From Tridacna crocea (taxonomy: Eukaryota; Mollusca; Bivalvia; Cardiida; Cardiidae), in the NCBI GenBank assembly GCA_943736015.1, contig OX031065.1, positions 34,424,427 to 34,488,426 on the forward strand: a stretch of DNA of 64,000 bases, read 5' to 3'. Below the pieces are notes generated by a model that saw only the letters and a program-made list of their open reading frames with translations, was not told the origin of the DNA and ran no database searches. Of the stretch, positions 1,888 to 62,155 are shown one piece after another. The position numbers and the translations under genes were made by a program. Position 1 is the first letter of the stretch, and each line of letters starts with the position of its first letter.

Positions 1888-4800
1888 CTTTGACATGGTC
1901 ACTAATGAACTTCACTGCAGAGGAGTCCCATTTTATAACCGACCTTAATACAAAATAGAAAAAATATGCTCCATAAATTTCTTAATTTCTAATAAAACAT
2001 TACTTTACATTCTTATGGTATACCTTCCTTACTATGCAGACAAAACTGAATGAAGAAAAAATTACTGGAAATAATAAATTATAATAAATAATAGGATTTA
2101 CAAAGAAATAAATGATGCAGTGTTTCCTGAGTTCAAGTCAACTATGTTGTTATGATTTGAAAAATGTAACCCATTTTTTTAATTTAAACAAATGGGAAAT
2201 TTTATCCTTTGAGGGATCTGTATTAGAACAACACAAAGTAATGTCTACCTTTCATACACCATCAAATCATCTGGAGATATCTGCAGTGACAGAGGTTTGA
2301 TACCATCCAGGGCAAGCTGTTTTATCTGATGAGGCAATTTAGCAAATCTTGGTGGAATCTGGCGCAAACTGCAAAATCATACTAATAATTGACCCTACAT
2401 ATAACACACTGGCACTTTTTATACCCATCTTTCTCATATTTCACTCCTGTATGAAACTACAAACAGAATTAAACTTTCAATGCCAAATATACACTAGTAA
2501 TACAAGACTAGTAAAAGCAATTATAAGGTTGCCCTTGTCCAGAATGACTCAAAATGGACAGTGTAGATCAAAGATTACACTGCATGTTTTGTACAATCTG
2601 GTATTTTTCTAATTGGTCACAAAGACAACAAATCATGTCATCAAAAGTAAAGCATGATATACCTGTTAATCCTTTATCAAGCGACAAAACTTTAGACTGG
2701 TCCAAATTCAAGACATTTGCAGACAACAAATTATTGATGGCCCAAATGGCAGAATTTGTCCTTGATAAAGTAGAAAACATTGTTGGAAGAGGAGAAGGTA
2801 ACCATCAGTTTCTCCTTTTTCACAATGTTTTAAAAAGGTTTCTTTCCATGGGTCATTAAAACCTACAATCCTTACTTTCATAATCTAATGGAAGAAGGCT
2901 TCTGAAAGCATAGTAGGAAAAGCTAGTAACCAGCACTTTACTGTTTCTCACAATGTTTTCTTCTTTATAAAGGATGAATTTTGTGATTTCAGACGAGTAA
3001 GATCATTTTGATATCTGACAGAAAGTTAACGGAAACATCAAGGATCCTATTTTTTCTTTCAGTACTTTTTTTTAGTTCAGGGCCCATATTCACCAACCAT
3101 TCTTAAGAACATTCTTTGTCTTATTCTCCAAGGTTTTCTAAATCTGTAAGTAACACAACTTCTGATTGGCTAAACCATTTGGTTTAGCCAATCAGAAGTT
3201 GTATTACTTACATATGTAGAAAATTCTGGAGAATAAGACAAAGAACATTCTTAAGAACGGTTACTGAATACAGGCCCTGTTCTAATTTTTCAGTTTTTGT
3301 TTTTGATATATTTTTCAAACAAACATCCAAACCTTGAATTGAACTGGAAAGTAATTTAGAAGAAAGATACCCGGTAATATACCTTCAATACATCAAGTTA
3401 CTTGTTAGAGTAGAAATTTTAAGCTGTTTAAGCCTACATACCATGGCACTGGGATTTGCTGTCTTATTCCTTCATCTATCAAGAAGCAACTATAACACAA
3501 AGGAAATATGTATGCGTTTAACAATTCTCTTTCATGTAATAACCTATTATATACAAGGTTGGTTTTTCTTTGCTACCTTTTTCAACACTATAACTTAACT
3601 CTACAACAGTTGAAATTATTTTAGACTTATCCAAAGTGATGAATTGGAAGCAAACAAGTGAGCCGTGCTCTGTCAAAAGAGGGCTTAACTTTTTACTAAA
3701 TGACAAAATTTTAGACTTGTCCAAATTGAAAGCATTCGTAGACGTCAAAATAGAAGTGATTGAAAATCTGAAATTTGTATTGCAGAGAGTAGAGAACATT
3801 GTTGGAAAAGGAGAAAATGCTGATTGCCAGTATTTTCTCCTTTTCCCACAATGTTTCCTAAAGGCTTCTTTCTCAGGGTCGTTAAAAGTCCACATTGTGT
3901 GACAAAGGGTTAATGCATCTGTGAAACTATTGACCCAGTTTAGCCTGCGCGGCTGACCCCTTTTTGCTGGCAGTCAATTTCCTGTATATCCATGAACCAG
4001 TCTACCTCAGGATTTAGCCAGCTATTAACCCTTTACTCCATAGATGCTCATTTCTACCCATTGCTTTTAGGAGCCTTTGGAAAACATAGTGGCAGAAGGT
4101 GAAATTTCTCGTCACAAGCAATTTCACTTTTTGTCACAATGTTTTCTATGCTATCAAAAGGTATTATATACACATAAGAAATGGTTTCATCCTTGCTGTT
4201 ATTTAGGGTCAATTACAGATACCATAGAAATGCCCTATGGGGTAAAGCGTTAAAAAAAAAGGTGATTATTATGGGCCCATAAATATGTGATAGTTTGCTT
4301 GGTACCAAGGATCAAGGAGATGCATTAAGCCCCCTTTTTCACAGAGCATGGCCAAAGTTTATCTGCCTCATGGATGGTTAATATGGCCCCTGATTACTAA
4401 TGACATATTAAATAAAAGAATGCACGAATGACATTCTATGGCACAAAACACCATGGGTTATTTAGCGTCCATGTCAGTATGAAATGGAATTGTTTGAAAG
4501 ATTTTTTCAAAATGATAAACTGCTTTTTAACTGTTTACTAAACGACAAAATTTTAGACTGGTCCAAATTGAAAGCATTTGCAGATGTCAAAATAAATGTG
4601 ATTGAAAAATTAAAATTTGGTTTGGAAAGGGTAGAAAACATTGTGGGGAAAGGAGGAAATGCTGGTTATCAGCATTTACTCCTTTTCCCACAGTGTTTTC
4701 AAAAGGCTTCTTTCTCTGAGTCGTTAAAAGTCGGGATTGTGCGGTAAAGAGTTAAAAGATATTCACATGAAGAGAATGGCTTATTTACATGTATTTCGTA

Positions 4801-7800
4801 ATCCTGATACATATACTAAGCTGCTTGGTAGTCTGTGCCTATATGAAAGTTTGAAATGAAGATTAACATTGCGATTAGTAGCTATAAGGAGGTAAAAACA
4901 TGTTCATAATACATGCTCAAAACTAAAACAGAATGGTGCCTCCAATGGCATCAAAACACTCCCATGAAAAAGGTTTAGTCTCCAGTGGGGTAAAGTGCTT
5001 CCAGGACTTATTATAGAGCAATACAATCATTAACTTCTAGCCAAACTTCTACAATCATACAAATAATTGACCTTGTATAATACACTGGCACTGTAAAAAA
5101 AAAAAAAATTACACTTATCCATATTGAAAGCATTTGCAGACGTCGAAATAAACTTGACTAAAAAATTGAAACTTGACTTCGGAAGCGCAGAAAACACTGT
5201 GAGATAAGAAGAAAATGCTGTTTACCACAACGTTTTCAGAAGCCTTCTTTCCAAGAGTTGTTAAAACCAGGGGTTCTCAAGGGTTAAGTAAGAAAACCAA
5301 GGTCCCTGAAAATGTGTGTATTTAACCTTTCACTCATTACCCCGAGAAAGAAAGGTTTTGAAAGAACTGTGGGAAAAGGAGGAAATGCTGGTAACCAGCA
5401 TTTTCTCCTTTTCCCACAACGTTTTCTACCCTTCAAAAACACATTTCAAATTTTCAATCACTTTTATTTCATTTTGTTGTCTGCAAATGCTTTCAATTTG
5501 GATAAGACTAAAATTTAAAGGTGACTAAAAAATTGAAATTTGTTCTCCTTTTCCCAGTGTTTTCAAAAGGCTTCTTTCTCAGGGGCGTCAAAAGTAGGGA
5601 TCATGTGGTATTGGGTTAAGAGTTAAAAAACTAATAATATCAATAATTCTTACCTGGCATACAAGCCATTTTTCATGCTCAACTTTCCGTCAACTCGGAC
5701 TCTGTGCCAAACAGTTCCAACCTTACCAACACACACTTGACCCTATCAATATAAATAACAATTCCACTCCGGCAAAAGGAAACTTGTTTAACTCTTTACC
5801 ATACAAACCCTGAGAAAGAAGCCTACAGAAAACATTGTGGGAAAAGGAGAAAATGCTGGTAACCAGCATTTCTCCTTTTCCCACAATACGTTTTACCCGT
5901 TTCGAGTCAGAGATTGTCATATTAACAAGATTTAATTTGTTGTCTACAGATGCTTTGAATTTGGACGAGTCCAAAAACATGTTGTTTGGTAACAAATTAA
6001 CCCTTTACCATATAGCAAAATTTTAGACCTATCCAAATCGAAAACATTTGCAGACAAAAATTTATAGTGGCTCAAATGACACAGTTTTTCTTTATTAAGG
6101 TAGAAAACTTTCTGGGAAGCAATGGCTGTAATATACAAGGCTGTGGTAAGACGATATCTATAATGTACATGATGATGAAAACGACATTGAAAACTTTCAT
6201 ATGGCCTGTAACACGCGAAAAAGTGCATTCGGACATTTGCGTAAAGTGTCGTCTCTGTCGTCCGTGCAGGCTAATCCAACTCGATACTTTCTGTTTTTAT
6301 GTAATTTTCTGTTTGGCCCAAGTCTACTGTAGCGCAAAATCTAATGTGGTCGTAAAGTGCCTTCTCGGATCAGCCTGCGCGGAAAGCGCAGTCTGATCCG
6401 AGAAGGTACTTTACGCAAATGTCCGAATGTCTCTTTTCGCGTATTGCAAGTCATATTGATGAAAGAAACTTTGTGAAGACTGGTTACCAGCATTGTCTCC
6501 TTTTCCCTCAATGTTTTCAAAAGGCTTCTTTCTCAGGGTCTTTAAAAGTCGTCATCGTGCGGTAAAGGGTTAATGCATAGCTCTCTATAATACCGGTACA
6601 CACTCAACCAAACAAGATGCAACGCGATTATGGTCCTATAAAATCCATTTTTTCCGACAGCTAATTGAATCATAGGGTGGAAGAGTCTTAAGGCATGCAA
6701 GGAAAGTTACAAATATGGTAGCTAAAAGTTTTGACTGACATTAGCCTGTGCTAAATGAGCTCTGTGCAGACTGACAAAGGTTAATAATATCCTTTGCATA
6801 CACATGAGACACCTTTTTCATAGAGTATGGCCCATACACAAATTTCTTCATACATGTCAGTCACACATCCTCATAGTCACTTGATACTTTATAATGATTA
6901 ACCCTCTAACCCTTTACCCCATGAAGCATTTCTATGGTATCTCTAATTGACCCTAAATAACAACAAGGATGAAGCCGTTTCTTATGTGTATATGACACCT
7001 TTTGATAGCATAGAAAACATTTTGACAAAAGGCGAAATTGCTCGTGACAAGCAATTTCACCTTTTGCCACAATGTTTTCCAAAGGCTCCTTCAAGCAATG
7101 CATAGAAATAAGTACCTATGGAGTAAAGGGTTAATAACTGACAAAATTTTTGGTCTGTTAAAAAAATTTTGTTGTGTTGTAAAGTGTTAACCGTGAAAGA
7201 CTTACCTCATGTGGATGATAAGGGATAACACTCATTATCTGGTCATTGTCAAAGTGAACATTCATTTCTTCATGCATGATGAGAAATTCCTTGGCCTCCA
7301 CGCCATCTCTATCTACCAGTTTGGCTTTCAGATCCCCGTGAATACCAACCTGTCAACAAAATTAGCAAATCTCAACCCATTGGGCGTTATGAAAAATTTT
7401 AGTTGATTTCTTGCATAGATTCAAATCAGACAATTCTTGTAATCTTGAATTAGCATTATCTCCTATTTAGCCAGAAATTCATGAAAAAACTGGTTGTTTT
7501 AAAAACTGCAGCATGTTCCTCTCTTTTTTTTTCTATATGAAACTGGCCATTTAAATGTATTTCACCTCTTTATAACAAAGTATTAGACTTCTAAACTATT
7601 TGCAGATAATCACTGATATGTGGCACACACTTGTGGGACTATTTCAAACTGTGGGAATCAAAACTGTGAAAATAAATCCAACCCCTTCACCGCTTAACCC
7701 TTTACCACACAGCAAAACTTCAGACCTATCCAAATTGAAAGCATTTGCAGATGGCAATTTCATAGTGGCTCAAATGACACAATCTTTGGTAGGGTAGAAA

Positions 7801-8409
7801 ACTTTGTGTGAAAAGGAGAAAATGCTGGCTACCAGCATTTTCTCCTTTTCACACAATGTTTTCAAGAGGCGTCTTTCTCAAGGTCCTTAAAAGTCGGGAT
7901 TGTGTAGTAAAGGGTTAATCATGGAAGATGGAATTGCATATTCAACAACTTACCTGGGGTCCGATGAATCACCGAAATACCACCGAAACACCTCATTTTT
8001 TTTCTACTGAGTTTAGATAACTGATAACAATATGAAACATTTGTCTTTTTTTGTGATATTTGAGTGAACTATTGTAGATTGATAGTAAGTTTAAAACATT
8101 ATGACAGAAAAAAAAATTTAACGACCCTGGGAAAGAATCCTTTTGAAAATATTGTGTGAAAAGGAGAAAATGCTGGTAACCAGCATTTTCTCCTTTTTCC
8201 GCAATATTTTCTACCCTATCAGAGAGAAATTACACCATTTGTGCCACACTGAAATTGTCGTCTGCAAATGTTTTCAATTTTGTCAAGGCTAAAATTTTGT
8301 GTCAAATATCAACAAAATACAATTAATTCAGACTTTTATCAGTAATCTGAAAAAATTTGGGTATTTTGGTGTTTACCTGCACATTCTCAAGAAGGATCTT
8401 TCGTGTCAT
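1888..8409 (-). CDS. Tudor-domain protein, TDRD6/TDRD15-like, N-terminal exons (partial)
   Basis: Six minus-strand coding exons join in phase: 8377-8409 (starts MTRKILLENVQ), 7206-7349, 5654-5742, 3442-3489, 2249-2368 and 1888-1943, giving about 163 residues before the left edge. Each has AG acceptor and GT donor. The ATG has an in-frame TGA 12 bases upstream and A at -3. The second exon (GIHGDLKAKLVDRDG) is followed by GQVCVGKVGTVWHRVRV, CFLIDEG, an IPPRFAKLPHQIKQLALDGI stretch and IKWDSSAVKFI. That order is the extended-Tudor layout: entry strand, short acidic turn, LP-x-Q-x-x-x-x-L-x-G segment, then W-x-x-x-A-x-x-F. It most resembles the first Tudor unit of TDRD6-type proteins, which bind dimethyl-arginine marks on Piwi partners in germ granules. 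The family call is from memory; another multi-Tudor protein is possible. Introns hold many TTAA MITEs. The acidic turn reads IDEG rather than the common DYG. Confidence 0.7.
2666..2995 (+). mobile_element. Two eroded subfamily A MITE remnants
   Basis: The first begins ttaatcctttatcaagcgac and keeps the aagacatttgcagacaac arm and a mutated hairpin. The second (from about 2886) keeps aaccagcactttactgtttc and the right arm only. Confidence 0.6.
3078..3279. mobile_element. Family F fold-back element, copy 1
   Basis: A nearly perfect ~200 bp palindrome. Left arm cagggcccatattcaccaac ... cttattctcc is mirrored by ggagaataagac ... gaatacaggccctg, with the centre at aaaccatttggttt. A second copy lies at 58660-58860. 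Confidence 0.85.
3685..3913 (+). mobile_element. TTAA MITE subfamily A
   Basis: TTAA to TTAA, with the tccaaattgaaagcattcg arm first and the ggcttctttctcagggtcgt arm last. The central hairpin has several mismatches (gctgattgccagt). Confidence 0.8.
4025..4253 (+). mobile_element. TTAA MITE subfamily B
   Basis: Left end ttaaccctttactccatag and right end ctatggggtaaagcgttaa. The hairpin is gaaatttctcgtcacaagca then atttcac, with some mismatches. Confidence 0.85.
4527..4755 (+). mobile_element. TTAA MITE subfamily A
   Basis: Full length with both TTAA. The hairpin is ggggaaaggaggaaatgctgg with mirror agcatttactccttttccc. Confidence 0.85.
5105..5287 (+). mobile_element. TTAA MITE subfamily A, 5'-truncated
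   Basis: It begins at a poly(A) run instead of TTAA and keeps the gcatttgcagacgtcgaaat arm. The hairpin is partly deleted. It ends gggttaa. Confidence 0.65.
5322..5619 (-). mobile_element. Compound subfamily A MITE (two fused partial copies)
   Basis: A minus-orientation copy runs from ttaacctttcactcattacc to about 5517, where it fuses to the right half of a plus-orientation copy ending in attgggttaa. The join lacks the terminal bases of both. Confidence 0.7.
5788..6000 (-). mobile_element. TTAA MITE subfamily A
   Basis: Bounded by TTAA at both ends, hairpin gctggtaaccagc. Its right TTAA (5997-6000) is also the left TTAA of the next element. Confidence 0.85.
5997..6573 (+). mobile_element. 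TTAA MITE subfamily A interrupted by a family D element
   Basis: The left half runs from the shared TTAA to about 6200 (arm atccaaatcgaaaacatttg). The right half, from about 6455, holds ggttaccagcattgtctcct and ends gcggtaaagggttaa. Between them lies a complete family D insertion. Confidence 0.75.
6201..6454. mobile_element. Family D fold-back MITE, copy 3, nested
   Basis: Ends ggcctgtaacacgcgaaaaa and ctcttttcgcgtattgcaag. The right inner palindrome is intact (cttctcggatcagcctgcgc); the left one has lost several bases. Confidence 0.8.
6898..7134 (-). mobile_element. TTAA MITE subfamily B
   Basis: Minus orientation: catttctatggtatctctaa comes first and the cctatggagtaaagggttaa end last. Hairpin gcgaaattgctcgtgacaag then caatttcacc. 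Confidence 0.85.
7694..7918 (+). mobile_element. TTAA MITE subfamily A
   Basis: Intact ends and a clean hairpin (aaaaggagaaaatgctggct / accagcattttctccttttc). It lies in the intron after the Tudor gene start exon. Confidence 0.85.
8118..8300 (-). mobile_element. TTAA MITE subfamily A, right end lost
   Basis: It starts ttaacgaccctgggaaagaa, so the terminal ~25 bases with the ccctttacca motif are missing, and it fades after ctaaaattttg. The hairpin is intact. Confidence 0.7.
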
Positions 8410-9423: not shown

Positions 9424-9613
9424 TTAACCCTTTCCCAAACAATTCCTGGTTTTGACAGGTCTGGAATAGTAGCCCTTTGGAAACATTGTGGTTTCCACAA
9501 TGTTTTCTACCTTATCTTTTCAGAAATCATCTTTTCAGCAAGAGTTGAATTGTCGTCTGCAAATGCTTTCAATTTGGTCAAGTCCAAAATTTTGTTGTTT
9601 GGGAAAGGGTTAA
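9424..9613 (-). mobile_element. TTAA MITE, subfamily A/C mosaic
   Basis: The left terminus ttaaccctttcccaaacaat is C-like, while the inner arm gtctgcaaatgctttcaatt is A-like. The hairpin is reduced to cattgtgg/tttccacaatg. Confidence 0.7.
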
Positions 9614-9744: not shown

Positions 9745-10606
9745 GGTCCTACTAAAACACGCCGTACCAGAAAAATACGCCGTACCATACGCCGTACGGA
9801 AAAAAACACGCCGTACCAAAATGTGCAACTTATTGCTTGCTTTTTTTTGTTTCGTTATGTTGAAAACCATATTATCTATCTTACCTAGCAATATTAATAC
9901 CCAATTTTTCGTATTTGTCAAGTTATTTGCCAATTTCAGTCATTCTTTCACGGGACCAACAGGTGCCCGTTACGCCGTACCAATTAACTTAGCGCCGTAC
10001 GAATATTGAGGCACAAACAACCAAATTAATAAGAATGTTTGATACAATTGAACTGGCCACCGTTGTATACCGTGTATTACACGTAGTGTATCAAGGGAGG
10101 TAACCAGTCTATGATACAATATGCAATTATCTACTTATTTACCAGTTTATGTTGATGTATTTTTATTTCTTACAGAGTTTGCAGGTACATGTCAAGCATC
10201 AAGCGGATATTTACAGAAGGGAAATTACTCTGTTGTACTATTGAAGTTTATACAGAGTTACGCTTCATGACTTTAACTCTTTCCCAAACGACAAATTTAA
10301 GACCCTTCCAAACTCGTTTGCAGACGACAATTTCTGTAGATTCTGTAGATGGGTAGATAATATTGTGGGAAATGGAGAAATTGCTCGTCACGAGCAATTT
10401 CTCCTTTTTCACAGTGTTTTCAATAGACTTGTACTGCAGACATGTAAAAACAAGGGCTTGTTTGGGAAAGGGTTAATGAAGCCGTGTGGAAAAACGTGAA
10501 ATTGCTTATGGCCATTTCTCTTCTTTTCCGATACTGAAAAATATGTTATTGAAAACATTTGGAGAAAAGAAGAAAATATGGTAACCCTCCTGTAACAAAT
10601 TGCATT
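9745..10606 (+). repeat. Left arm of large inverted repeat
   Basis: Pairs with 12475-13285 in opposite orientation at near identity over about 0.8 kb, from ggtcctactaaaacacgccg to cctcctgtaacaaattgcat. It includes a subfamily C MITE. It carries about 72 bp missing from the other arm, flanked by tgatacaat on each side. Six acgccgtac-like motifs lie in its first 260 bases. Confidence 0.9.
10273..10476 (+). mobile_element. TTAA MITE subfamily C inside left inverted-repeat arm
   Basis: Ends ttaactctttcccaaacgac and gtttgggaaagggttaa. Hairpin agaaattgctcgtcacgagc then aatttct. The same insertion is in the other arm, so it predates the duplication. Confidence 0.85.
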
Positions 10607-10609: not shown

Positions 10610-12474
10610 GTTTTACCCTTTACCAAACGACTAAAATTTAGCATTGTCCAAATTGAAAGCATTTGCATGACAATTTCAGTGCAGCTCAAATGGAGACAGT
10701 TTTCCTTGAAAGACTAGAAAACAATGGGGAATGCAAAAATCGGGATTATGTGGTAAAGGGTAATGGTTGTAGAACTCTTAGCCATAAAAATGTTTCCAGA
10801 CTCAACGACTTGACGTGGTTCTACCAGGAGTCCTTTTTATTTATTTATTTATTTTACTTTTTTTATTTTAAACTAAATTTTATGAACATTAAAACTTTTG
10901 TTTTTTCATTTATTAATCTATTTTTACATTTCTTGTGTTTTACTATCTATTTGTTATCTGTTTATTTTTTGCCTGGCATCAAAGCTCATTACCACCCTAT
11001 ATTAAAAGGGCACCAAACAAGGACTCGCGGCGTATGAGCTTATAATGACCACGATTATTAATTTAAACTTATTTATGAATTTGTAATTTTAAAACTCAGT
11101 CATTAATCAATTTTTACATTTCTGGTGTTTTACTATCTATTTATTGTCTGTTTATTTTTTGCCTGGCAATAAAGCTCATTACCACCCTATATTAATAGGG
11201 CACCAAACAAGGACTCACGGCATATGAGCTTATAATGACCATGGTTTTTAATTGAAACTATTTTATGAATTTGTAATATTAAAACTCAGTTATATTTTTT
11301 CATTCATTAACTCATTACCAAACAATATTTTAGGCTTGTCCAAATCGAAAGCATTTGCAGGCAACAAAATAAAAGTGACTGAACATTTGAAATTTGTTTT
11401 GTGAAGGATAGAAGACATTGTCACCAGCATTTTCTCCTTTTCCCACAATGTTTTCTAAAGGCTTCTTTTTCAGGGGAGTCAAAAGTAGGGATTGTGTGGT
11501 AATGGGTTAATCTATTCTTACAGTTCTGGTGTTTTACTATTTATTTTCTGTTTATTTTTTGCCTGGCATCAAAGCTCATTACCACCCTATATTAATAGGG
11601 CACCAAACAAGGACTCGCGGCGTATGAGCTTATAATGACCATGAAACCTTTTGTTTTAGTTTATTTTACTGTTATTAATTCTATACCTATTTCATGAATT
11701 TGTAACATATTTTTTTCATTCATTAATCCATTTTTACATGACTAGTTTTGGTATTTTACTATCTATTTATTATGTACCAAATTGAAAGCACTTACATTCG
11801 ACAAAATTAATGTAACCCAAAAATTGGTAGAAGACATTGTGGGACAAGGGGAACATGATGGTTTCCAGCATTTTCTCCTTTTTCCCACAATGTTTTCAAT
11901 AGGACTCGCGGCGTATGAGCTTATAGTGACCATTAAACTTTTCTTACCGGTAGTTTATTTTTTTCCATACATGGCATGTTATTAACCCTTTTCCGAAGGA
12001 CTTATTTCCATACATGGCATGTTATTAACGCTTTTCCAAAGGACAATTTCTTTTTCTTCTGTGCCCACCGTGTTTTCAAACGACAAGTAAAACAATTTTT
12101 GATTTGCTAGAGCGTGGTTACACCAAGAGAAAGCGGAGCAGTCCTCATATTTGCGCTCTAAGAAATGTTTTACTCATTATTCAACTGTATGTTTTTTGTT
12201 TTGAATACTCGTTGTGTTAGCAGATCTAACTCGCTTATAATGACCATTAAACTTTTTTTAGTTTATTTTTTTTTTTTTTCCGTACATGACATGTTATTAA
12301 CCCTTTTCCAAAGGACATTTTCTTCTGTTCCCACCGTGTTTTCAAAAGACAAGTAAAACATTGTTTGATTTGCTAGAGTGTGGTTACACCAAGAGGAAGC
12401 GGAGCAGTCCCCATATTTGCGCTCTAAGAAATGCTTTACTCATTATTCAACTTATGTTTTTTGTTTTGAATACT
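10610..12474. repeat. Inverted-repeat spacer with dispersed 130-bp and 190-bp modules
   Basis: One module (tttgcctggcatcaaagctc ... ggactcgcggcgtatgagct) occurs near 10840-11055, 11110-11245 and 11520-11645, with a fragment at 11900-11935. Another (ttattaacccttttccaaag ... gcggagcagtccccatattt) occurs at about 11980-12200 and 12290-12470. Eroded A MITEs occur at 10610-10765 and 11775-11905. No coding sequence seen. Confidence 0.75.
11307..11510 (+). mobile_element. TTAA MITE subfamily A
   Basis: Bounded by ttaactcattaccaaacaat and gtggtaatgggttaa. The left half of the hairpin is deleted (gacattgtcaccagcatttt). Confidence 0.8.
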
Positions 12475-13285
12475 CAATGCAATTTGTTACAGGAGGGCTA
12501 CCATAATTTTCTTCCTTTCTCCAAATGTTTTCAATAACATTATTTTTCAGTATCGGAAAAGAAGAGAAATGGCCATAAGCAATTTCACGTTTTTCCACAC
12601 GGCTTCATTAACCCTTTCCCAAACAAGCCCTTGTTTTTACATGTCTGCTGTACAAGTCTAGTGAAAATACTGTGAAAAAGTAGGAATTGCTCGTGACCAG
12701 CAATTTCTCCTTTTCCCACAATATTATCTACCCATCTACAGAACTTTCTGCCATTTTTATCAAATTTGAAATTGTCGTCTGCAAACGAGTTTGGAAGGGT
12801 CTTAAATTTGTCGTTTGGGAAAGAGTTAAAGTCATGAAGCGTAACTCTGTATAAACTTCAATAGTACAACAGAGTAATTTCCCTTCTGTAAATATCTGCT
12901 TGATGCTTGACATGTACCTGCAAACTCTGTAAGAAATAAAAATACATCAACATAAACTGGTAAATAAGTAGATAATTGCATATTGTATCAAACATTCTTA
13001 TTAATTTGGTTGTTTGTGCCTCAATATTCGTACGGCGCTAAGTTAATTGGTACGGCGTAACGGGCACCTGTTGGTCCCGTGAAAGAATGACTGAAATTGG
13101 CAAATAACTTAACAAATACGAAAAATTGGGTATTAATATTGCTAGGTAAGATAGATAATATGGTTTTCAACATAACGAAACAAAAAAAAGCAAGCAATAA
13201 GTTGCACATTTTGGTACGGCGTGTTTTTTTCCGTACGGCGTATGGTACGGCGTATTTTTCTGGTACGGCGTGTTTTAGTAGGACC
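12475..13285 (-). repeat. Right arm of large inverted repeat
   Basis: Reverse complement of 9745-10606, including the C MITE and the tacggcgt motif cluster (13022-13280). It lacks the 72 bp segment and keeps one tgatacaat in its place. Confidence 0.9.
12608..12829 (-). mobile_element. TTAA MITE subfamily C inside right inverted-repeat arm
   Basis: Same insertion as 10273-10476 in mirror orientation. Hairpin gaattgctcgtgaccagcaa then tttctcc shows a few changes from the other arm. Confidence 0.85.
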
Positions 13286-13856: not shown

Positions 13857-14129
13857 TTAACTCATTACCAACCGACAAAATTCGGTTTTACGCTTGTCCA
13901 AAACAGGGATCATACATGTTATATAGAATCCCTGTCCAAATCGAAAGCATTTTGCAGACGACAAATTAAAAGTGACTGAAAATTTGAAATTCGTGTTGTG
14001 AAGGATAGAAAACATTGTGGGAAAAGGAGAAAATGCTGGTTACCAGCATTTTCTCCTTTTCCCACAATGTTTTATAAAGGTTTCTTTCTCAGGGCCGTCA
14101 AAAGTACGGAATGTGTGGTAATGGGTTAA
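13857..14129 (+). mobile_element. TTAA MITE subfamily A with ~45 bp extra in left arm
   Basis: The gtccaaa arm motif occurs twice, separated by acagggatcatacatgttat atagaatccct, so the copy is 273 bp rather than ~229. The central hairpin is a perfect 27 bp stem ending gctggttaccagc. Confidence 0.9.
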
Positions 14130-14750: not shown

Positions 14751-14975
14751 TTAAACTTTTTACCAAACTACAAAATAATAGAGTGGTCCAAATTGAAAGC
14801 ATTTGCAGACGACAAAATAAATGCGACTGAAAAATTGAAATTTGGGAAGGACAGAAAACATTGTGGGAAAAGGAGAAAATGCTGGTTACCAGCATTTTCT
14901 CCTTTTCCCACAATGTTTTCAACTGCTTTCTACATCAGGGTTGACAAAATTTGTTACTGTGTGGTAAAGGGTTAA
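14751..14975 (+). mobile_element. TTAA MITE subfamily A
   Basis: Intact ends. Perfect hairpin ttgtgggaaaaggagaaaat / attttctccttttcccacaa. Confidence 0.9.
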
Positions 14976-15044: not shown

Positions 15045-15255
15045 TTAACCCTTTCCCAAACAAGCCCTTGTTTTTATGTGTCTGCAGTCCAAGTCTTTTG
15101 AAAACACTGTGGGAAAAAGAGAAATTGCTCCTTTTCCCACAGTGTTTTCTACCCATTTCAAGAACTTTCTGTCATTTTTATCAAATTCGAAATTGTCGTC
15201 TGCAAACTGTTTCAGTTTCGAAGAGTCTAAAACTTATTGTTTTGGAAAAGGTTAA
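15045..15255 (-). mobile_element. TTAA MITE subfamily C, hairpin tip deleted
   Basis: Ends ttaaccctttcccaaacaag and gttttggaaaaggttaa. The tip is missing: gaaattgctccttttcccac jumps from one stem strand to the other. Confidence 0.85.
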
Positions 15256-15622: not shown

Positions 15623-15789
15623 TTAACTCATTACCAAGCAACAAAATTATGTTTAGTTTGTCCAAATCGAAAGCATTTGCAGACGACAAAATAAAAGTAA
15701 CTGAAAATTTGAACTTTGTTTTGTGAAGGGTTTCTAAAGGCTTCTTTCTCAGGGGCGTCAAAAGTAGGGATTGTGTGGTAATGGGTTAA
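15623..15789 (+). mobile_element. TTAA MITE subfamily A lacking the central hairpin
   Basis: Both TTAA ends and both arms are intact, but ttgttttgtgaagggt is followed directly by ttctaaaggcttctttctca. The loss removes precisely the palindromic core. Confidence 0.9.
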
Positions 15790-18022: not shown

Positions 18023-18250
18023 TTAACCCTTTAGTACACAATCCCGGCTTTTAACACCCCATGTGGAAGAAGCCTTATGAAAACACTGTGGGAAAAGGAG
18101 AAAATGCTGGTAACCAACATTTTCTCCTTTCCCACAATGTTTTCTTCCCTTCCTAAAACAAATGTAAATTCTGTAGTCACATACATTTTGTCGTCTGCAA
18201 ATGCTTTCAATTTGGACCAGTCTAAAATTTTGCCATTTGGTAAAGAGTTT
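18023..18250 (-). mobile_element. TTAA MITE subfamily A, right TTAA lost
   Basis: Left end ttaaccctttagtacacaat. Right end decays to gtaaagagtttac. A further eroded fragment follows to about 18400. Confidence 0.8.
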
Positions 18251-18475
18251 ACACAATCCTGAGTTTTCACGACTTTTGTGGACATTATGGGAAAAGGAGA
18301 AAGCGCTGGTAAGCATTTTTTTGTCTCACTTTTTAATTCTTGTCCGCAAATGCTTTCAATTTTGACAAGTCCAAAGTTTTGCTAGCTTAGTAAAGAGTCA
18401 ATGTAATAAGTGTTGAACATGTTACAGAGATACGGATTTGGAATCAAAGTGGCAACTTTCGGTTAATCGGATTAA

Positions 18476-18876
18476 ATGGAGACAGTCAACATTGTATAAT
18501 CTTCACACTTAGTATTATAAATTGGCCTGGACAGTTACAACATCGATTTACTCTGGTTCTTTAACTTATTACCAAACAACAAGGTTTTAAGTTTGTCCAA
18601 ATCGAAAGCATTTGCAGACAACAAAATAAAAGTGACCGAAAATTTGAAATCTGTTTTGTGAAGGGTAGAAAACATTGTTGGAAAAGGAGAAAATGCTGGT
18701 TACCAGCATTTTCTCCTTTTCCCACAATGTTTTCTAAAGGCTTCTTTTTCAGGGGCGTCAGAAGTAGGGATTGTGTGGTAATGGGTTAATTGGAGACAGT
18801 CAACATTCTATAATCTTCACACTTTTATAAATTGACCTGGACAGTTACAATATCGATTTACATTGGTTCCTTTAAG
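18476..18876 (+). repeat. ~90 bp direct duplication with a MITE at the junction
   Basis: ggagacagtcaacattgtat ... tggttctttaa (18476-18564) recurs as ggagacagtcaacattctat ... tggttcctttaa (18789-18876), with a subfamily A element between. Confidence 0.85.
18561..18789 (+). mobile_element. TTAA MITE subfamily A (reference, 229 bp)
   Basis: Order of parts: TTAA; cttattaccaaacaacaagg; gtccaaatcgaaagcatttg cagacaacaaaataaaagtg; hairpin tggaaaaggagaaaatgctg gttaccagc and mirror; taaaggcttctttttcaggg; gtagggattgtgtggtaatgg; TTAA. There is no coding capacity. TTAA targets with short CCY-type ends suggest mobilisation by a piggyBac-like transposase encoded elsewhere. Confidence 0.95.
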
Positions 18877-19522: not shown

Positions 19523-19752
19523 TTAACCTTTTCCCAAACAAGCCCTTGTGTTTTTACGTGTTTGCCAAACAAGTCTTTTGAAAACACTGTGGGAATAGGA
19601 GAAATTGCTCATAAAGAGCAATTTCTCTTTTTCCCCCAGTGTTTTCTACCCCTGTAGAGAGCTTTCCGCCATTTTTGTCAAATTTGAAAATGTCGTCTGC
19701 AAACTCTTTAAGTTTGGAAGAGTCTAAAATTTATCATTTGGGAAAGGGTTAA
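19523..19752 (-). mobile_element. TTAA MITE subfamily C (reference)
   Basis: ttaaccttttcccaaacaag ... tgtttgccaaacaagtcttt ... hairpin agaaattgctcataaagagc then aatttct ... gtctgcaaactctttaagtt ... tttgggaaagggttaa. Arms differ from A, but the outline is the same. Confidence 0.9.
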
Positions 19753-49500: not shown

Positions 49501-52500
49501 TATGTGGTTTTTTTTTTTTTCTCTTTAACAAAAAACAAGTTTCTTTCAGCTTTAGATATTGTGTGTATGTTTTTTTTTTTTCTCTTAAACTCATTACCAA
49601 ATGATAATATTTTAGGTTTGTCCAAATCGAAAGCATTTACAGACAACAAAATAAAAGTGACTGAAAACTTGAAATTTGTTTTCTGAAGAGTAGAAAACAC
49701 TGTGAGAAAAGGAGAAAATGCTGGTAACTAGCATTTTCTCCTTTTCCCATAATGTTTTCTAAAGGCTTCTCTCTCAGGGTCGTCAAAAGTAGGGACTGTG
49801 TTGTAATGGGTTAATTCATTACTTTTTCAAGCATAGAGAGTCTATTTCAGAAAAAAAATGTCCAAAGTTTACATGTTCATAATACTTCCTGGATATCATC
49901 GGTACTAAACTTAGGCTCTACAATGTTTTGCCACAGAATATTCCTATGCAACCAGTTTCATTATCAGATCCATTGACCCTACAACTCTTGGATAATGTCC
50001 ATACTTGAAGACCTTCAAAACTAACAAGTAAACAAACAACATGCGGAGTTACCTTGGAACGAAATAAGCATTATCATCAGTATACACCCAATTCTTCACC
50101 CATGGTGCTTTCACCTGGAAATAAAATTTTACCTTACCACACGCTTCAATGCTACCCACTCATTGAAATCTCATACAGTTTGCTGTTTACTTTTTAAAAA
50201 AAAAAAATTTTTTTCAAGTAATTTCTTATGCTTTTCTTACCAATTAAGATGCTTTTGCTTTTGTTTTTAAACCCTTTCCCAAATAATCCCTGGTTTTTAC
50301 GACCCTGAGATAGAAGCCTTTTGAAAACATTGTGAGAAAAGGAGAAAATGCTGGTAACCAGCATTTTCTCCTTTTACCACAATATTTTCTACCCAGCTGG
50401 AAACAAATTTTAATTTTTGAGTTTCATATATTTTGTCGTATGCAAGTGTCGTCTTTCAATTTGGACCAGTCTGAAATTTTGTTGTTTGGTAAAGAGATAA
50501 CCAACAGCACCATCCTTATACATGTATTTGGAAATTGAGAAACAATTCACTGACAAGCTCATTATTTCTTCAGTATTGGAAATATTTTGGAAAAAAGCAT
50601 CCACTTCAGATTGCCATCCATTGGTCTATTCTAAATAAAACAAATTCCAAGTTTTATTTAGCACTTCAAGTGTTCAAACAGAAGTGTACTTTTGTGTCTT
50701 GTGTAAAATAACATAAATACAGGTCCAGCTGTACTGTAATGAATTACTGCTGCAGTGAATTAGATTCAAGTGCAATTTAAGGGATATTGCTTTCTTCCAA
50801 AAACTTTAAATGGAGAAACACACAGACTAATAATTTTGTAAATAATCATGATCTAGACCTGTAGAATGTCTGTTTATTCTTCATTTACACTGCTTTCAAA
50901 AGCTCCTTTTTTGCCTATGGATCTGAAAGCGTAGAGTGACAAAAATATACTTTCCTGGTCCACAGCAAGTTCTTCATAGACAATTTCAGGCTTCATCACC
51001 AAACAAAATACTGAATATTCTAGAGTCAAGATCATACTGCACTGAAAATATAGTGTGATATCCAGTGTGTCAGAGGATCAGAAAATTTTTACCAATAGGA
51101 TAACATTAGCTAGTACTTTATGCAAATGCATTAAAACCCTGTTTCTCAAAGAGCAATTCATAATATGTATTTACCTGTACTAAATGGCCCCTTACAGGAT
51201 ACACTGACTTGTCCCCAACCAGCTCTTTACTTCTGAATCCTGTACAGTTAACTACCACATCATACTGGCCAATCAACTGAAATGTGCAGCTAGCAATCAG
51301 ACTGAATTTTAGTCTTTACTTTCATCACTCTTAACCATAAAACAGAAAATTTAGACCTGTCTAAATTGGAAGCATTTGGAAATCACAAGCTGGATCTGGT
51401 TCAAATGGCTGGATTGTCTATATAGAGGGGTTGAAAATGTCAGAACATTTTCCACTTTACCAGCAACACTTTCAAAAGCGTTCTTCTTTGAGAGGTTATT
51501 GCACTCTGGGTTGTTTGCTAAAGGGTTAAAGATTTTAAAAAAAAACATTACATTAATTTCAGATAAAATTCATATAAACTATTCTATATGAAATAAAGGC
51601 TCAGTTTTGGCCAGAAGTAATAGTTTCCAGTGTCAAAAATGCATCCTTATGTAAATCACACCATTATACAAGATGAAAATTAAGTACTGTGAAGATGACA
51701 ATCTGTTATTGTCAGTGTTAGATGCTGGTAGAAAAATGAGTTTTAAAACTAGGCAAAACATAAAAAGATAGTACATGTATACAAGTAAATAGAGTCACTC
51801 ATCTCCTTTTTACCCAATTTTACATTTCAGTTTCATGTAAAGTTGCGAAAATACAATGAAAGAATGATACCTCCTCTAGACTAGAAACTGTTTTGTATTG
51901 CACAGTTCCCCCATGGTCCTTGAACCTGTAAAAAAGTAAAAAAACAATTCCTCAAAGAAATGTCTCTTGACCATTATGCCACTTCAGCATCAGTTCAAGT
52001 TTCATTACAGCAACAGCTCATTTATTATCATGGTTTCTCGGCTTCACTTCCACTATGTTTAAGGCTCTATGTGTACAGTCACTTAATCCATTACCAAACG
52101 ACAGTATTTTAGACTGGTCCAAATTAAAAGCATTTGCAGACAACAAAATAAAAGTGTCTGAAAATTTGAAATTTGTTATGAAGGTTAGAAAACATTGTGG
52201 GAAAAGGAGAAAATGCTGGTTACCAGCATTTTCTCCTTTTCCCACAGTGTTTTCTGAAGGCTTCTTTCTCAGGGGCATCGAAAGTAGGAATTGTGTTGTT
52301 ATGGGTTAAACACGGAATTTCGTTGAAATGATATCCCTGGCCAAAAAAGACTTCTTTTGATACAAACATGTTGGAGGTTTTGTGTGTTGCATGAACATGT
52401 GACCTTTTTGTTAATGGTCCATGATAAAATTACACATTAAGCCTCCTTTTTCCATGGCACAGCATTTCATTAAACAATAAATATATAAGCAGTCCATAAT

Positions 52501-58500: not shown

Positions 58501-60651
58501 AAGATGAAAAACTCCGGGAGAGCATTGTTTACAACATATAACAATTACCTTTTCATCAGCCAAGGCAAGTAATACGCCGGATCTGTTATTACTGTAGTTA
58601 CTTGGTACCCGTATCTGTTATAAATACAAAGAAAATAACCGACTTTCTGTCGTAAAATCCAGGGCCCGACTTCACCATCGATTCTTGAGAATATTCTTAA
58701 TCATATTCTCCAAGGTTTTCTAAATTTGTAAGTAACACACCTCTGATTGGCTAAACCAAATGGTTTAGCCAATCAGAAGTTGTGTTACTTACAAATGTAG
58801 AAAACTCTGGAGAATAAGACAAAGAACGTTCTTAAGAATGGTTGATAAATACAGGCCCTGGAAGCATTCAACTTCAAATTAAAATACCTAGATTGTAAAA
58901 CTGTGCACTTCTATAAACCGGCAGAAAAAATGAGCTAATGAAAATAAGCCAAAATGCTAAGTTCTTTGAAAAGAAGGAGCTTGGGGATAAGAGCTAATAT
59001 TGGCATTAAATAAAAGAATAAAATCTATAAAGAAAATCTATTTAAAAAATACTATGGCCTACTTAAGGGATTAATAAGAATTTAAAAAAAAATGTTTCAG
59101 TAAGTACGCAGTATATATGGGGATAATGTCTTGGCCAGTGATGTCAGAAACATTTAAAACATACTTAAGTAAAGTTTTATTTTGATTGGAAACACCTTAA
59201 TCCTTTTGTTTCAACTTTGAACAAAGCAAAATAAGCAGCTTTTACAGAGCTCGCAATCATTAAACACGATTCGGTTTCTTCACTTACTCGTACTGAACAC
59301 CTAGTTTCTGCAACTCATCTTTTGTGAGTTCCCGAAAGCTGAATACAAGGTCTTTATAGAGTGGATTCTGAAAAGAGTATGCATGAGTTACATACAACTC
59401 GGACTGGTGTAGCTCCCAACATACAAGCTACAAGTATGAAAGTTCTTCGTGAGCTTCAATCTATGTGTTTGACATAAACAATAAAACTTAGACATTACAT
59501 CGAAAAAACTAACAGAACTAGGTAGAGTGGCAGATATTATAAAGAGAAAACTAAGGCAAAAGGTATTTCGAAGTCTAAATGATTATTTAGGTATCGGTGA
59601 GGCTCGTTATCGATTTCAAAGATGAGTCAACTTGTCTAGGTGATCAGCTTTTAGTTCGCCTCTAATTTTGCTACCATGCAGGCGATGTAGGTAAGGTAAT
59701 ACGGTACAGATTACGCAGTCGTATGCCTGATCCATGCCGTCATATACTTTAACTCAATCCAAACGACAATATTGCAGGTTTGTTCCAAATTGAAAGCATA
59801 AGCAAACGACAAAATAAAAGTGACTGAAAATTTGAAATTTGTTTTGTGAAGGGTAGAAAACATAGTGGGAAAAGGAGAAAATGGTGGTTACCAGCATTTT
59901 CTCTTCCCACAATGTTTTCCAAAGGCTTCTTTCTCAGGGTCGTCAAAAGTAGGGATTGTGTGGTAATTGGTTAAAAAATATAGCAGGCCAACCTAATTGC
60001 CATACAAATTCTTTTCTATTCACATTTTTAGTTGTCGGCTCCTAACAATTGTTCAATTGAGAAAAAATTGTACACCCTATTTATACACATGTACATTGTT
60101 AAACTCAATAGCAAAAATATAATTACTACGGATGATCCCTTCGTCTTTACTCGTATCACATTAAGCCCTATAACAGATGTGGCCGGTATCAAATTTTCAG
60201 TATAAAAAACTCCCTTTGTTCGCAATAACCCGGTCCAATTTAGTTAACCCATTACCACACAATCCCTACTTTTGACGCCCCTGAGAAAGAAGCCTTTCGA
60301 AAACACTGTGGGAAAAGGAGAAAATGCTGGTAACCAGCATTTTCTCCTTTTCCCACAGGTGTTTTCTACCCTTCCCAGAACAAATTTCAATTTATCAGTC
60401 ACCTTTATTTTGTCGTCTGCAAATGCTTTCAATTTGGACCAGTCTAAAATTTTCTCGTGTGGTAATGAGTTAAGTAGTTTGACGAACTGGAACCGCCCTA
60501 TTAGTAAGTTTAGAGACAAAGCTACAAGTAACTTACAACGACTGGAGTATGGCTGAACACGTAGCCAGCAATGATCATATGACCGGACTCGCTGGCTTCT
60601 GCTGATCTGGCTAGACTGGAGAAATGATTGAAAGCAGCCAGGCTCCATCTT
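46514..60651 (-). CDS. DDO: D-aspartate oxidase-like flavoenzyme, 5'-partial, SKL terminus
   Basis: Eight minus-strand exons fit DAO/DDO order and phase: 60537-60651, 59288-59367, 51871-51925, 51175-51276, 50053-50114, 48677-48797, 47326-47424 and 46514-46627. Recognisable blocks are FNHFSSLARSAEA, NPLYKDLVFSFRELT, YDVVVNCTGF, YPVRGHLVQ, LGGIRQ, WVDLRPHRDPVRVE (substrate-carboxylate arginine region), HNYGHGANGITLSWG (FAD region) and C-terminal NKSKL, a PTS1 signal. DDO oxidises D-aspartate and related acidic D-amino acids in peroxisomes, giving oxaloacetate, ammonia and H2O2. The Arg in GG-x-RQ, where DAO has an aromatic residue, favours DDO over DAO; this comparison is from memory. Two parts were not found: the N-terminal GxGxxG exon, and roughly 20-25 residues expected between GVQYE and FKDHGG. 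The flanking phases would still join in frame without them. The 7.4 kb intron between 51925 and 59288 holds a broken LINE and two HINE types. Confidence 0.87.
46679..46902 (-). mobile_element. TTAA MITE subfamily A
   Basis: Ends intact; hairpin mutated. It lies 52 bases upstream of the last oxidase exon. A further eroded copy spans about 46930-47175. Confidence 0.8.
47565..47792 (+). mobile_element. TTAA MITE subfamily A
   Basis: C-like terminus (ttaaccctttcccaaacaac) with A-type arms and a perfect A-type hairpin. Confidence 0.9.
48255..48483 (+). mobile_element. TTAA MITE subfamily A, right TTAA mutated
   Basis: Ends gtaaagagtgaa. The stem is perfect with tip gctggaaaccagc. Confidence 0.85.
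48855..49585. repeat. Minisatellite, ~60 bp unit, about 12 copies, in an oxidase intron
   Basis: Units alternate gtttctgtcaactttagata, ttgtgtgtatgtg, a T-run of 7-13, and ctctttaacaaaaaaca. The T-run length varies between units. A TTAA MITE begins at its last ctcttaa. Confidence 0.95.
49585..49814 (+). mobile_element. TTAA MITE subfamily A at the minisatellite edge
   Basis: Its left TTAA lies inside the final minisatellite unit (ttctcttaaactcattacca), so the element inserted into the array. Confidence 0.9.
50267..50500 (-). mobile_element. TTAA MITE subfamily A
   Basis: Left ttaaaccctttcccaaataa. Right end mutated to gtaaagagataa. Perfect stem. Confidence 0.85.
51330..51529 (+). mobile_element. 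Degenerate subfamily A MITE
   Basis: Right end gctaaagggttaa. The hairpin is reduced to gaacattttccactttaccag. Confidence 0.6.
52083..52309 (+). mobile_element. TTAA MITE subfamily A
   Basis: Full length. Perfect stem with tip gctggttaccagc. Confidence 0.9.
52410..52960. repeat. Diverged ~85 bp tandem units
   Basis: ggtccatgataaaattacac attaagcctcctttttccat recurs with variation around 52415, 52495, 52555, 52740 and 52905. The longest A-run is at 52801-52820. The right part keeps little repeat identity. Confidence 0.55.
53690..53920 (+). mobile_element. HINE-like fragment, second type (upstream of LINE)
   Basis: tcctccgcctaggcgaagaa (hairpin) is followed by gtcc/gtcy-rich sequence, agaatatctccaataccatt and tccaaaatggccgactggga. 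A matching copy lies at 57852-58190. Confidence 0.6.
54390..54690 (+). mobile_element. Decayed non-LTR retrotransposon (LINE), left part
   Basis: The frame reads YFKGDYENIKNQLNQ ... VDESWNFLADKLYSIDK then a stop, followed by KKAVKKKKQAWKKYLLLQN with another stop. This is the linker normally between endonuclease and reverse transcriptase. No endonuclease domain precedes it, so the copy is 5'-truncated. It is continued at 55964. Confidence 0.75.
54691..55963 (+). mobile_element. HINE-like element inserted in the LINE
   Basis: Left end agggctatgatggccct (hairpin) then gctccactggc. Right end hairpin ctggccttcggccag, inverted match gccagtggagc and CTAA. The core is about six ~165 bp units (marked by gggctataatttgggcactc). 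An acgcacgtacggacgcacgacggac microsatellite-like stretch lies at 55890-55916. Same architecture as 40299-42507 but a different core sequence. Confidence 0.75.
55964..57830 (+). mobile_element. Decayed LINE, reverse-transcriptase part
   Basis: Recognisable RT blocks in order: NKAAGPDGIHPK, TPIFKAGNKHLPVNYRPISI, GFIQGRSC, YDFKKVFDTLSH, GVPQGSALSPTLFLIFINDL, LFADDT (catalytic F-ADD, 56887-56898), then YKALVRPHLEYASPVWSPF and NVQRRATRLLKN. This set is typical of Jockey/CR1-type LINEs. Frameshifts near 56223, 56331, 57175 and 57600 and an in-frame TAG at 56974 show it is inactive. It lies antisense to the oxidase gene in its longest intron. Confidence 0.85.
57852..58190 (+). mobile_element. HINE-like fragments, second type (downstream of LINE)
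   Basis: Two heads occur: tcctccgcaaaaggcgaagg with tccgtccgtccgtcc, and ctgccgaaggcgaaggtata with gtccgtccttccgtctgtc. The second continues into aatatctctaataccatcgt and tacaaaatggtcgtctgcgg, matching 53690-53920. Confidence 0.6.
58660..58860. mobile_element. Family F fold-back element, copy 2
   Basis: Near-complete palindrome matching 3078-3279, centred on aaaccaaatggttt, with termini cagggccc and caggccctg. Confidence 0.85.
58861..59287. other. AT-rich intronic sequence
   Basis: Nothing recognised; examined for the missing oxidase exon without success. Confidence 0.4.
59749..59974 (+). mobile_element. TTAA MITE subfamily A
   Basis: Left end ttaactcaatccaaacgaca. The right stem strand has lost the cctttt part (ttctcttcccacaatg). 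Confidence 0.85.
60244..60473 (-). mobile_element. TTAA MITE subfamily A near oxidase exon 60537-60651
   Basis: Full length. The right TTAA is 63 bases downstream (in the intron) of that exon's donor. Confidence 0.9.
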
Positions 60652-62155
60652 CTGTGAATAAAAAATCCAGATCATCATAGCTCATTCAGCAACATGAACA
60701 AAAGTCGTCTCATTTATAATTTTTAGGCAACCAGACCGCCTCTGAAGACGTAGTGGGTAAAACAACAAATAGTTACCCATTTTACTTTTTGCCATAATTT
60801 TTTCATAAGTATGCTTACATAAAAAAAAACCCTATTTTAAATGTTGGGCAACTACATCAGTTTTTTCGAAGGCGAGATTTTCATTCTCGCCTTCATATGT
60901 CAACGCTCGGCAGCTTGCTGAAAATGCCTCTGAACAGCATTATCAAAACGCCTTTCAAATAGTTCGATACTTCTCAAGTACATAAGAACAAAATAATGTC
61001 GAGACCATTGTAAATTTAATCAGAAGAGCAAGAAGAAACTTCAAGTTTCTAGCAGAAATGAAATCGAATTCGTAAAAAGCATCGTTTTTGACAAATGCAA
61101 AATACTTTGGATCAGCTCATTGATATAATCATGTTGCTACAGCAACAAATAAACCGTAGCTATACTATAAGCCAATCGAAAGCTACTAACATGACGTCAT
61201 TCGGACCTACTTCCACTTCACAACGCATAAACAACTAACCAGTGGGATCGTAGATGTAAATTTACTATCACAGAACTAACCAATCGGATAGCTTCTTTGA
61301 ATGACGTATCGCTGATAGACCCCTTTCCTCTGTTGGCAACCTTATTCTGTCTTTGTGAGAAGTAAAATTTCAATGAAATAAATTCCTTTGAATCATCAAG
61401 TGTTTCAACAAAATTTTCTCTTTCAAAGAAATATTTTTCTTTTATCAAAGTTGTGCTTGACTTTATGATTAATGACTAGGTTATTGTTAAGCATCGGCGT
61501 GGCCGAGTTTTGATTCCGGAGACCCGTGAAAAGAAAAAAGGTAAATCAGTTGAAATCACAATAGATGTGTCATTTCGAAGTAGTTCTGGTCAGTATGATG
61601 TACCGATGTATAGCCAGGCTGATCACTTCTTTCCTTATATATGAGTATGATCGGATTTTACTACGTCAAAAATGACAATAACATGATCTGTAACCGTTTT
61701 AACATACAAAGAATTTTAACTTCTTCTTTTGGTCGTCACGTTGCTTAACGCTCAGCAATTATTCATAAATATTTAACCCTTTACCACTCACTTGAAACGA
61801 CTCTAAAAATCAAGCTTTTAAAAATATAGAGAGGAGAGGGGAAATTACAATCGGAAACCGGCATTTTTTTTTTCATTTTACCACATTGTTCTGTCCTATC
61901 AAGAACAAATTTCGTCGCTAATTGGGGCCACCCTGAGTTTGTCATCTGTATGAATCAGTGCTTTCAATTTCAACTTAGTCTGAAATTTCTTTGTCAGGTA
62001 AAGAATAAACGCTTATCACAATGAATTGTTATCATAATCACTTACCTCCGTCATTATTAGAACTGAAAATCCCATTTATTTTCCTCGAAAGAATTTCTTT
62101 CAACTATGCACTTTTTCCAAAACTGAATAACACAATGATAACATTATCTTGACAG
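60652..62155. other. Upstream sequence of the oxidase gene; no N-terminal exon found
   Basis: It contains a short perfect hairpin ggcgagattttcattctcgcc at 60871-60891 and a degraded TTAA A MITE (61773-62009). A strong minus-strand donor, gacggag|gtaagt at about 62046, follows an ATG (ATGACGGAG) and could be a tiny first exon. No GxGxxG-coding frame was seen. Confidence 0.35.

Follow-up and report, generated by a model that had tools for sequence, protein, structure and literature searches.

It has long been asked how miniature inverted-repeat transposable elements (MITEs) come to outgrow the transposons they derive from. Pokey is a piggyBac-type transposon, and foldback-type elements have ends made of long terminal inverted repeats. 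Here we analyse a group of non-coding, TTAA-flanked MITEs with an internal palindrome. They densely fill a 64,000-bp stretch of the bivalve Tridacna crocea genome (GenBank assembly GCA_943736015.1, contig OX031065.1, positions 34,424,427 to 34,488,426), hereafter the window; very probably they are non-autonomous piggyBac elements moved by the transposase lineage of two full-length elements in the same genome, P1 and P2, with the palindrome as a separate module.

The closest described transposons are piggyBac and piggyBat (PF13843). According to the passages cited here, CCCTT and CCCAT are among the end motifs of animal piggyBac (PMC10813416), and the ends are unequal, carry subterminal repeats and are bound by the transposase at short palindromes (PMC11707139). 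The MITEs share the TTAA duplication, the CCCTT/CCCAT ends and the unequal ends with subterminal repeats, but they are non-coding, only about 229 bp long and contain a 67-bp palindrome. By description, they are also like mPok1 and mPok2, short elements related to Pokey, a DNA transposon that targets TTAA, and likewise non-autonomous. The Xenopus T2-MITE/Kolobok group, as presented in part of PMC6004289, likewise targets TTAA and has many MITE subfamilies; however, its ends are AGGRR and its transposase belongs to another superfamily. Unlike in foldback-type elements, the long palindrome is internal, and the terminal inverted match is short or imperfect.

The consulted passages on known piggyBac-type MITEs describe neither such a palindrome nor such a copy number. 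For bivalves, the cited part of a transposable element survey leaves MITEs without further classification (PMC10294476), and that of a hard-clam paper lists little PiggyBac (PMC8905726). We recognised no description of this MITE group in the open-licence literature searched.

Layout and target site of the MITEs

The end motif TTAACCCTTTACCA, with up to two mismatches, is found 108 times in the window, while 1.03 matches are expected and none of 100 shuffles reaches 108. Among 58 candidate end pairs, 46 end-to-end copies were chosen. One mismatch was tolerated per TTAA, and some copies are therefore flanked by TAAA, CTAA or similar. The commonest copy length is 229 bp. Profiles built from these 46 copies, and hence trained on the window, find 113 segments covering 19,163 of 64,000 bp (30%). 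The initial annotation had estimated 55-65 copies within 2666..62009; both figures were too small, as segments also lie at 68-254 and 63582-63813. Five dinucleotide shuffles (control run without --max) and the shuffled genome samples (control run with --max) give no profile match.

Each element consists of a 14-base end, a left arm (positions 15-55), the palindrome (56-122), a right arm (123-215) and a second 14-base end. The 67-bp near-perfect palindrome is thus internal and off-centre, with the right arm longer than the left. As described before, A, B and C each have arms of their own, and the right arm does not mirror the left. Subfamilies A and B agree in length (229) and in the position of the core. 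The terminal inverted match spans 14 bp in A, 17 bp in C and an imperfect 34 bp in B. Left ends are CCC in 52 cases and CTC in 11, right ends CTC in 34 and CCC in 20. The elements are short, and for that reason without coding capacity, and they have inverted ends, a high copy number and a homogeneous length, as is typical of MITEs. Searches of the window for Rfam families (gathering scores) and tRNAs gave no match. A Pfam scan of ten of its open reading frames finds no transposase; a reverse transcriptase and a UPF0172 exon are above the cut-off.

The joined flanks of all 46 copies were searched for empty sites, and 14 gave matches spanning the junction. Four of these are the copy's own neighbourhood; the other ten elements, compared in detail, comprise three clear empty sites, three gapless sites without TTAA, one ambiguous and three uninformative cases. 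In the first clear case, 11307-11510 lies in a 190-bp tandem repeat, and TTAA occurs once in each of the three empty units aligned. In the second, 20000-20228, an empty paralog at 20607 also has a single TTAA. The third, 35485-35722, is inserted in the left arm of another copy; among 37 such paralogs listed, four were displayed, all gapless, three with TTAA and the fourth with CTAA. The predicted TTAA target with single-TTAA empty sites is thus found in three clear cases, with no clear contradiction among these paralogs of the same genome, and the 4-bp TTAA duplication is that of piggyBac.

Neighbouring copies tell the same story. At five junctions exactly one TTAA is common to both copies, and at 37208-37884 two copies lie inside one TTAA of a third, whose joined flanks restore a gapless element. 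Copies starting at model position 54-56 could be taken for loose modules, but the three examined turned out to be insertions nested close to an internal TTAA-like site.

Two piggyBac elements with MITE-like ends

The genome contains at least 118 matches to PF13843, many with open frames. The surroundings of 17 of these loci were read, all without inner stops, and also the ends of four further P1 copies. The P1 family has five copies with 100% (rounded) identity over 491 residues and slightly different scores. Its borders were set by comparing copies C5 and C9, independently of the MITEs; their identity is 99.9% upstream (2,647 bp) and 99.6% downstream (254 bp). P1 is 7,203 bp long and has an intact transposase frame. 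Its protein matches PF13843 at 2.7e-88 and, among transposases of solved structure, those of piggyBac (3.3e-36) and piggyBat (1.8e-39), and it can be aligned to PDB 6x67 and 9c0f. D162, D240 and D350/D353 align with the piggyBac motifs and are conserved; we take these aspartates to be the catalytic ones.

The P1 ends, TTAACCCATTACCG... on the left and TTAACTCATTACCA... on the right, match those of the A1 MITEs. The left 39 bases are 82% identical without gaps, and the right end agrees at 14/14 bases. P1 has CCC at the left end and CTC at the right, and copies C3, C5 and C15 have TTAA at both ends. The left end contains four CTTTTGACGCCCCT-like repeats spaced 34-35 bp apart, while the MITE retains one.

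A second open-frame element, P2 (C7:18507265-18513640, 6,376 bp), has 80% protein identity to P1. Its sequence was read in part, and its borders follow from alignment to both P1 ends, which its own ends TTAACTCTTTCCCA match at 70-71%. By eye, repeats 2 and 3 of the P2 left end equal the left arm of the A2 consensus over 23 bases, ACAATCCCGACTTTTAACGACCC. In a nearest-partner tally over left positions 5-39, the copies with NNCTTT left ends that belong to neither B nor C number 35; P2 is the nearer partner for 33 of them, with two ties. All seven subfamily C copies are nearer P2, as are 11 of 13 other copies (two tie), while the nine copies of subfamily B divide into six nearer P1, one nearer P2 and two ties. 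A1, the CTTT-ended copies and C thus share ends with an element carrying a DDE_Tnp_1_7 transposase; for B no such element was found among the loci examined.

Four other piggyBac families were considered as partners and rejected; their ends CCCTTTATATAC, CCCATTTATGCC, CCCTTTCAGYGC and CCCTAGTCATGC have TTAA and CCC without the ACCA part. No clear pair of ends could be assigned to five loci (L039, L040, L042, L048 and the one on C8), and only one end to L043, C12 and C17. At L044, a CCCTTTATATAC-ended family member with an open frame lies between two parts of an apparent single MITE copy (878-961 and 3735-3866). Partial piggyBac transposase matches form clusters at C8:56.71-56.76 Mb and C13:4.48-4.61 Mb (G000).

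The assignment to piggyBac in the initial annotation is therefore borne out. A full-length element with matching ends, which it proposed to look for, exists in P1, with P2 as a second, and the ends match this superfamily in the same genome and not another one. The ends are of the CCY type (CCCTT/CCCAT, with right ends more often CTC). Kolobok, another superfamily, duplicates TTAA too, according to a passage in PMC9587614. However, Kolobok ends are 5'-RR in the cited passages (PMC9587614, PMC6004289), while the MITE ends are mostly CCC/CTC and match P1 and P2; we consider it extremely improbable that Kolobok moves these elements.

From the sequences, the arms of A, and less clearly those of C, appear to belong to the P1/P2 transposase lineage. 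As they match the P1 and P2 ends, they look like a transposase address, and a P1- or P2-type transposase probably moved the MITEs. At the level of sequence, what is established is the TTAA duplication, the ends and left-end repeat found in P1 and P2, the intact transposase frame with its conserved catalytic positions, and the genome-wide spread of the copies. We suggest that a transposase of this lineage, encoded elsewhere in the genome, would act in trans, recognise the short end together with one subterminal repeat in the arm, and move the element to a TTAA, which would become duplicated. The 67-bp palindrome would be a separate module, retained by A, B and C.

The internal palindrome

The core is much better conserved than the arms. 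Between subfamilies its identity is 85-91% (A-B 57/67, A-C 61/67, B-C 59/67), while that of the arms is 36-70% (left 18-25/39, right 32-64/about 90). In the consensus cores nearly all positions pair: 33/33 in A, 32/33 in B and 33/33 in C. Where pairs have changed between subfamilies, the change is mostly mirrored (3/3 for A-C, 4/5 for A-B, 3/4 for B-C), and all two-sided changes stay complementary; the chance probability of such mirroring is from below 5e-5 to 5e-4. Within A the picture is different. With one polymorphic pair omitted, 149 mutations are one-sided and seven two-sided, compared with 5.5 expected; this count covers 59 of 77 A copies, those without gapped cores. As differences between subfamilies are mirrored and mutations in single copies mostly are not, we conclude that the symmetry is maintained in the active, copy-producing lineages but not in copies after insertion.

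The core is not free of gaps. In an alignment of 101 copies, which omits the composite or shortened window copies 24416 and 34621, gaps of at least three bases occur in the core of 17 copies, in the left arm of two, and in the two right-arm segments of nine and six, with B copies omitted from the last count. Per base, the gap rate of the core is slightly above that of the inner right arm. P1 itself contains MITE copies internally, seen in the C5 copy and in the read parts of the C9 copy (L047, L063-L066). Core-like matches in P1 lie away from its ends and appear to be MITE copies, inserted or degraded, and the read parts of P2 give the same picture.

How the symmetry is kept can be explained in several ways. 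Most likely, we think, one arm of the hairpin or cruciform formed during amplification templates the other. Selection on the hairpin is a close rival, and it is part of a scenario of plain descent, in which one ancestral palindrome MITE gave rise to all subfamilies, the arms tracked diverging transposases, and the hairpin, selected for mobility or as an RNA hairpin, was kept by compensatory changes. The equal length and core position of A and B fit such a descent, as do the A-C arms, which align at 64-70%, the resemblance of the arms to P1 and P2, and the palindromes of three copies, which as RNA fold far below shuffles (z -8.1 to -11.5). However, the A-B arms are nearly unrelated (18/39 left, 36/89 right) while the cores agree at 57/67, which demands a large difference in rate, and one-sided intermediates, as a compensatory path would leave them, are few (0 to 1 in each comparison of two subfamilies). 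We regard plain descent with selection as a real contender, though somewhat short of probable.

It can also be speculated that the palindrome is an amplification module independent of the transposase, with the MITE arms re-addressed to the piggyBac lineage active at the time, and with symmetry restored in each round as one hairpin arm templates the other; we put this forward as a tentative and rather unlikely possibility.

The initial annotation proposed a modular build with exchange of parts. The common core with subfamily-specific arms is confirmed, whereas the exchange is not supported. If recombination or gene conversion placed the arms of MITE lineages or of autonomous elements onto a common core, core similarity would far exceed arm similarity, as it does, and the MITE copies inside P1 would provide the opportunity. 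Of the 12 left-end positions that distinguish P1 from P2, A1 agrees with each of the two at six; three of its P1 letters are in the end and the other three in the latter half of the repeat. However, of the two mosaics named in the initial annotation, 9424-9613 has the same nearest relative, L022_4127, in all three segments (0.87, 0.87, 0.96) and is therefore an ordinary member of a small subfamily and not a mosaic, and module exchange as a general explanation is rejected for it. The other, 47565-47792, has an inner right arm without a close relative (best 0.62). A weak mosaic candidate is 39743-39971, whose left part is A1 while its inner right arm is closer to group D (36/46) than to A1 (26/46). 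Several abrupt breaks reflect copies nested in others at TTAA-like sites, the left- and right-arm clusters are concordant (B 9/9, C 7/7), and the distance matrices of all segments are positively correlated, from 0.59 for L-R1 to 0.18 for core-R2, the weakest. Exchange of modules is in our view doubtful.

A number of observations count against non-autonomous piggyBac elements of the P1/P2 lineage with a separate, templated palindrome. At the target site, the gapless paralogs of 21863, 24416 and 34258 have related letters that are not TTAA, and for 20963 TTAA is lacking in both paralogs and one base is gapped in the alignment. P1 copy C9 has TTAA on the left but AATC on the right, and copy C10 has TTAA on the right while its left end was not found within the stretch read. 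The CCC-left/CTC-right contrast of P1 is a tendency among MITEs, not a rule. The left-arm comparison is also less clean for some groups: the A1 consensus matches P1 and P2 equally (28/35 each), and the 37 CCCAT copies divide into seven nearer P1, 13 nearer P2 and 17 ties, so the pairing of subfamilies and partners is not one-to-one. The A2 consensus matches P2 at 31/35 and P1 at 26/35, which is partly circular since the group (n=9) was picked by GACTTTTAA, also present in P2; the nearest-partner tally is free of this circularity. For C the match to P2 is moderate (25/35). B, whose partner would be expected to have TTAACCCTTTACTC ends, has none among the loci examined, its left arm matching P1 at 17/35 (P 0.005) and P2 at 16/35. 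The closest sampled MITE pairs are 96-97% identical, compared with 99.9% for two P1 copies upstream. Finally, regarding the palindrome, three subfamilies provide few independent events, the C core consensus is built from seven copies of which four are ungapped, and at the polymorphic pair of A, whose state marks two sub-subfamilies, 12 copies are two-sided and all complementary (5.2 expected) and 11 one-sided.

Abundance in the genome and features of the window

The high density noted in the window is a property of the genome. The exact end motif occurs 49,668 + 49,843 times in the 1,048,827,098-bp genome (31 contigs), while the reversed pattern occurs 9 + 7 times; this corresponds to 6.1 motifs per 64 kb, compared with nine in the window. 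We sampled twenty 10-kb stretches at hand-picked round coordinates on 15 contigs. Segments are present in 19 of the 20 samples (none in L036) and cover 16.2% of the sequence (bootstrap 95% 12.0-20.4%), with a range of 0-32% per 10 kb; the 30% of the window is near the upper end of this range. The samples contain 14 exact motifs where the genome rate predicts 19 and are therefore not enriched for the family. Altogether, the 200 kb contain 195 segments, 69 of them near full length under the looser of two filters; the stricter one retains 57, of which 27 are 229 bp long. Extrapolated to the whole genome, these counts would amount to some one million segments, with near-full copies numbering about 360,000, and the family is estimated to fill about one sixth of the genome.

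Bacterial or viral contamination as a source of relatives was considered and discarded. A 20-base core pattern matched one viral and nine prokaryotic contigs, but these matches are core stretches of at most 28 bases without arms and are therefore treated as chance; the right-arm pattern was not found in viral contigs.

Table 1. MITE copies in the window, with positions counted from its first base.
Feature	Position	Strand
MITE, group A, A2-like left arm	3685..3913	-
MITE, subfamily B	4025..4253	+
MITE, A2-like	4527..4755	-
MITE, B	6906..7134	-
MITE, group A	7694..7918	-
MITE, CCCTTTCCCA ends, same subfamily as L022_4127	9424..9613	+
MITE, C	10273..10476	-
MITE, A1, in 190-bp tandem repeat	11307..11510	-
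MITE, C	12608..12829	+
MITE, A1, with insertion	13857..14129	-
MITE, group A	14752..14975	-
MITE, C, core deletion	15045..15255	+
MITE, A1, core lost	15623..15789	-
MITE, group A	18023..18251	+
MITE, A1	18561..18789	-
MITE, C	19523..19752	+
MITE, A1, empty paralog at 20607	20000..20228	+
MITE, A1, empty-site comparison ambiguous	20963..21181	-
MITE, B	21441..21669	+
MITE, group A, nested in another copy	21863..22096	+
MITE, group A, TTAA 22840-22843 common with neighbour	22612..22843	-
MITE, group A	22840..23061	+
MITE, B, shared TTAA 23435-23438	23210..23438	-
MITE, A1	23435..23663	-
Shortened MITE, nested near left edge of another copy's core	24416..24571	+
MITE, A, CCCAT left end	25913..26141	+
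MITE, A1	26844..27072	+
MITE, A1, nested in another copy	34258..34474	+
Composite of two overlapping segments (34621-34708 +, 34704-34928 -)	34621..34928	-
MITE, A2	35058..35285	+
MITE at TTAA of another copy's left arm	35485..35722	-
MITE, B, internal duplication	36104..36372	+
MITE, B	36987..37211	+
One copy (37208-37262 and 37713-37884) interrupted at one TTAA by two others	37208..37884	+
MITE nested in 37208-37884	37261..37490	-
MITE nested in 37208-37884, shared TTAA 37487-37490	37487..37715	-
MITE, A2, alignment reference	39068..39296	+
MITE, weak candidate for a mosaic of A1 (left) and D-like (inner right arm) parts	39743..39971	+
MITE, A1	43777..44013	-
MITE, group A, core deletion	44162..44350	+
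MITE, A1	46680..46902	+
MITE, unequal ends	47565..47792	-
MITE, group A, D-like inner right arm	48255..48484	-
MITE, A1	49586..49814	-
MITE, group A	50268..50500	+
MITE, A1	52083..52309	-
MITE, A1, core folds to -49.2 kcal/mol	60244..60473	+

The window also contains other repeats. A different 202-bp repeat occurs at 3078-3279 and 58660-58860, the former copy being palindromic over its full length (86% arm identity), and a further family, about 270 bp long and carrying its own hairpins, is found at 284-559, 6190-6462 and 24759-25026. An inverted duplication of 304 bp (9745-10048 and 12982-13285) is 99.7% identical, and 41128-42399 is a satellite-like tandem array with about eight copies of a 161-bp unit. 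The reverse transcriptase at 56302-57634 (RVT_1 at 3.1e-27 for 56302-56973) and the frame that follows it can be read as part of a long interspersed nuclear element (LINE). A UPF0172 gene exon (29849-30181, 5.5e-25), from a family we take to be EMC8/9, lies inside a stretch without MITE profile segments (27916-34073). This exon marks the host as an animal, and repeat motifs point to a bivalve mollusc.

If about 16% of a 1-Gb genome stems from this one group, as estimated, its copy number would fall within the range of the human Alu repeats. One genome here combines likely parents with intact transposase frames and an estimated hundreds of thousands of offspring. As the presumed address part, which resembles the parents, is split from a hairpin that does not, the role of the internal palindrome becomes directly testable. 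If the palindrome is an amplification module, this would help to explain the estimated million segments of a single non-coding group.

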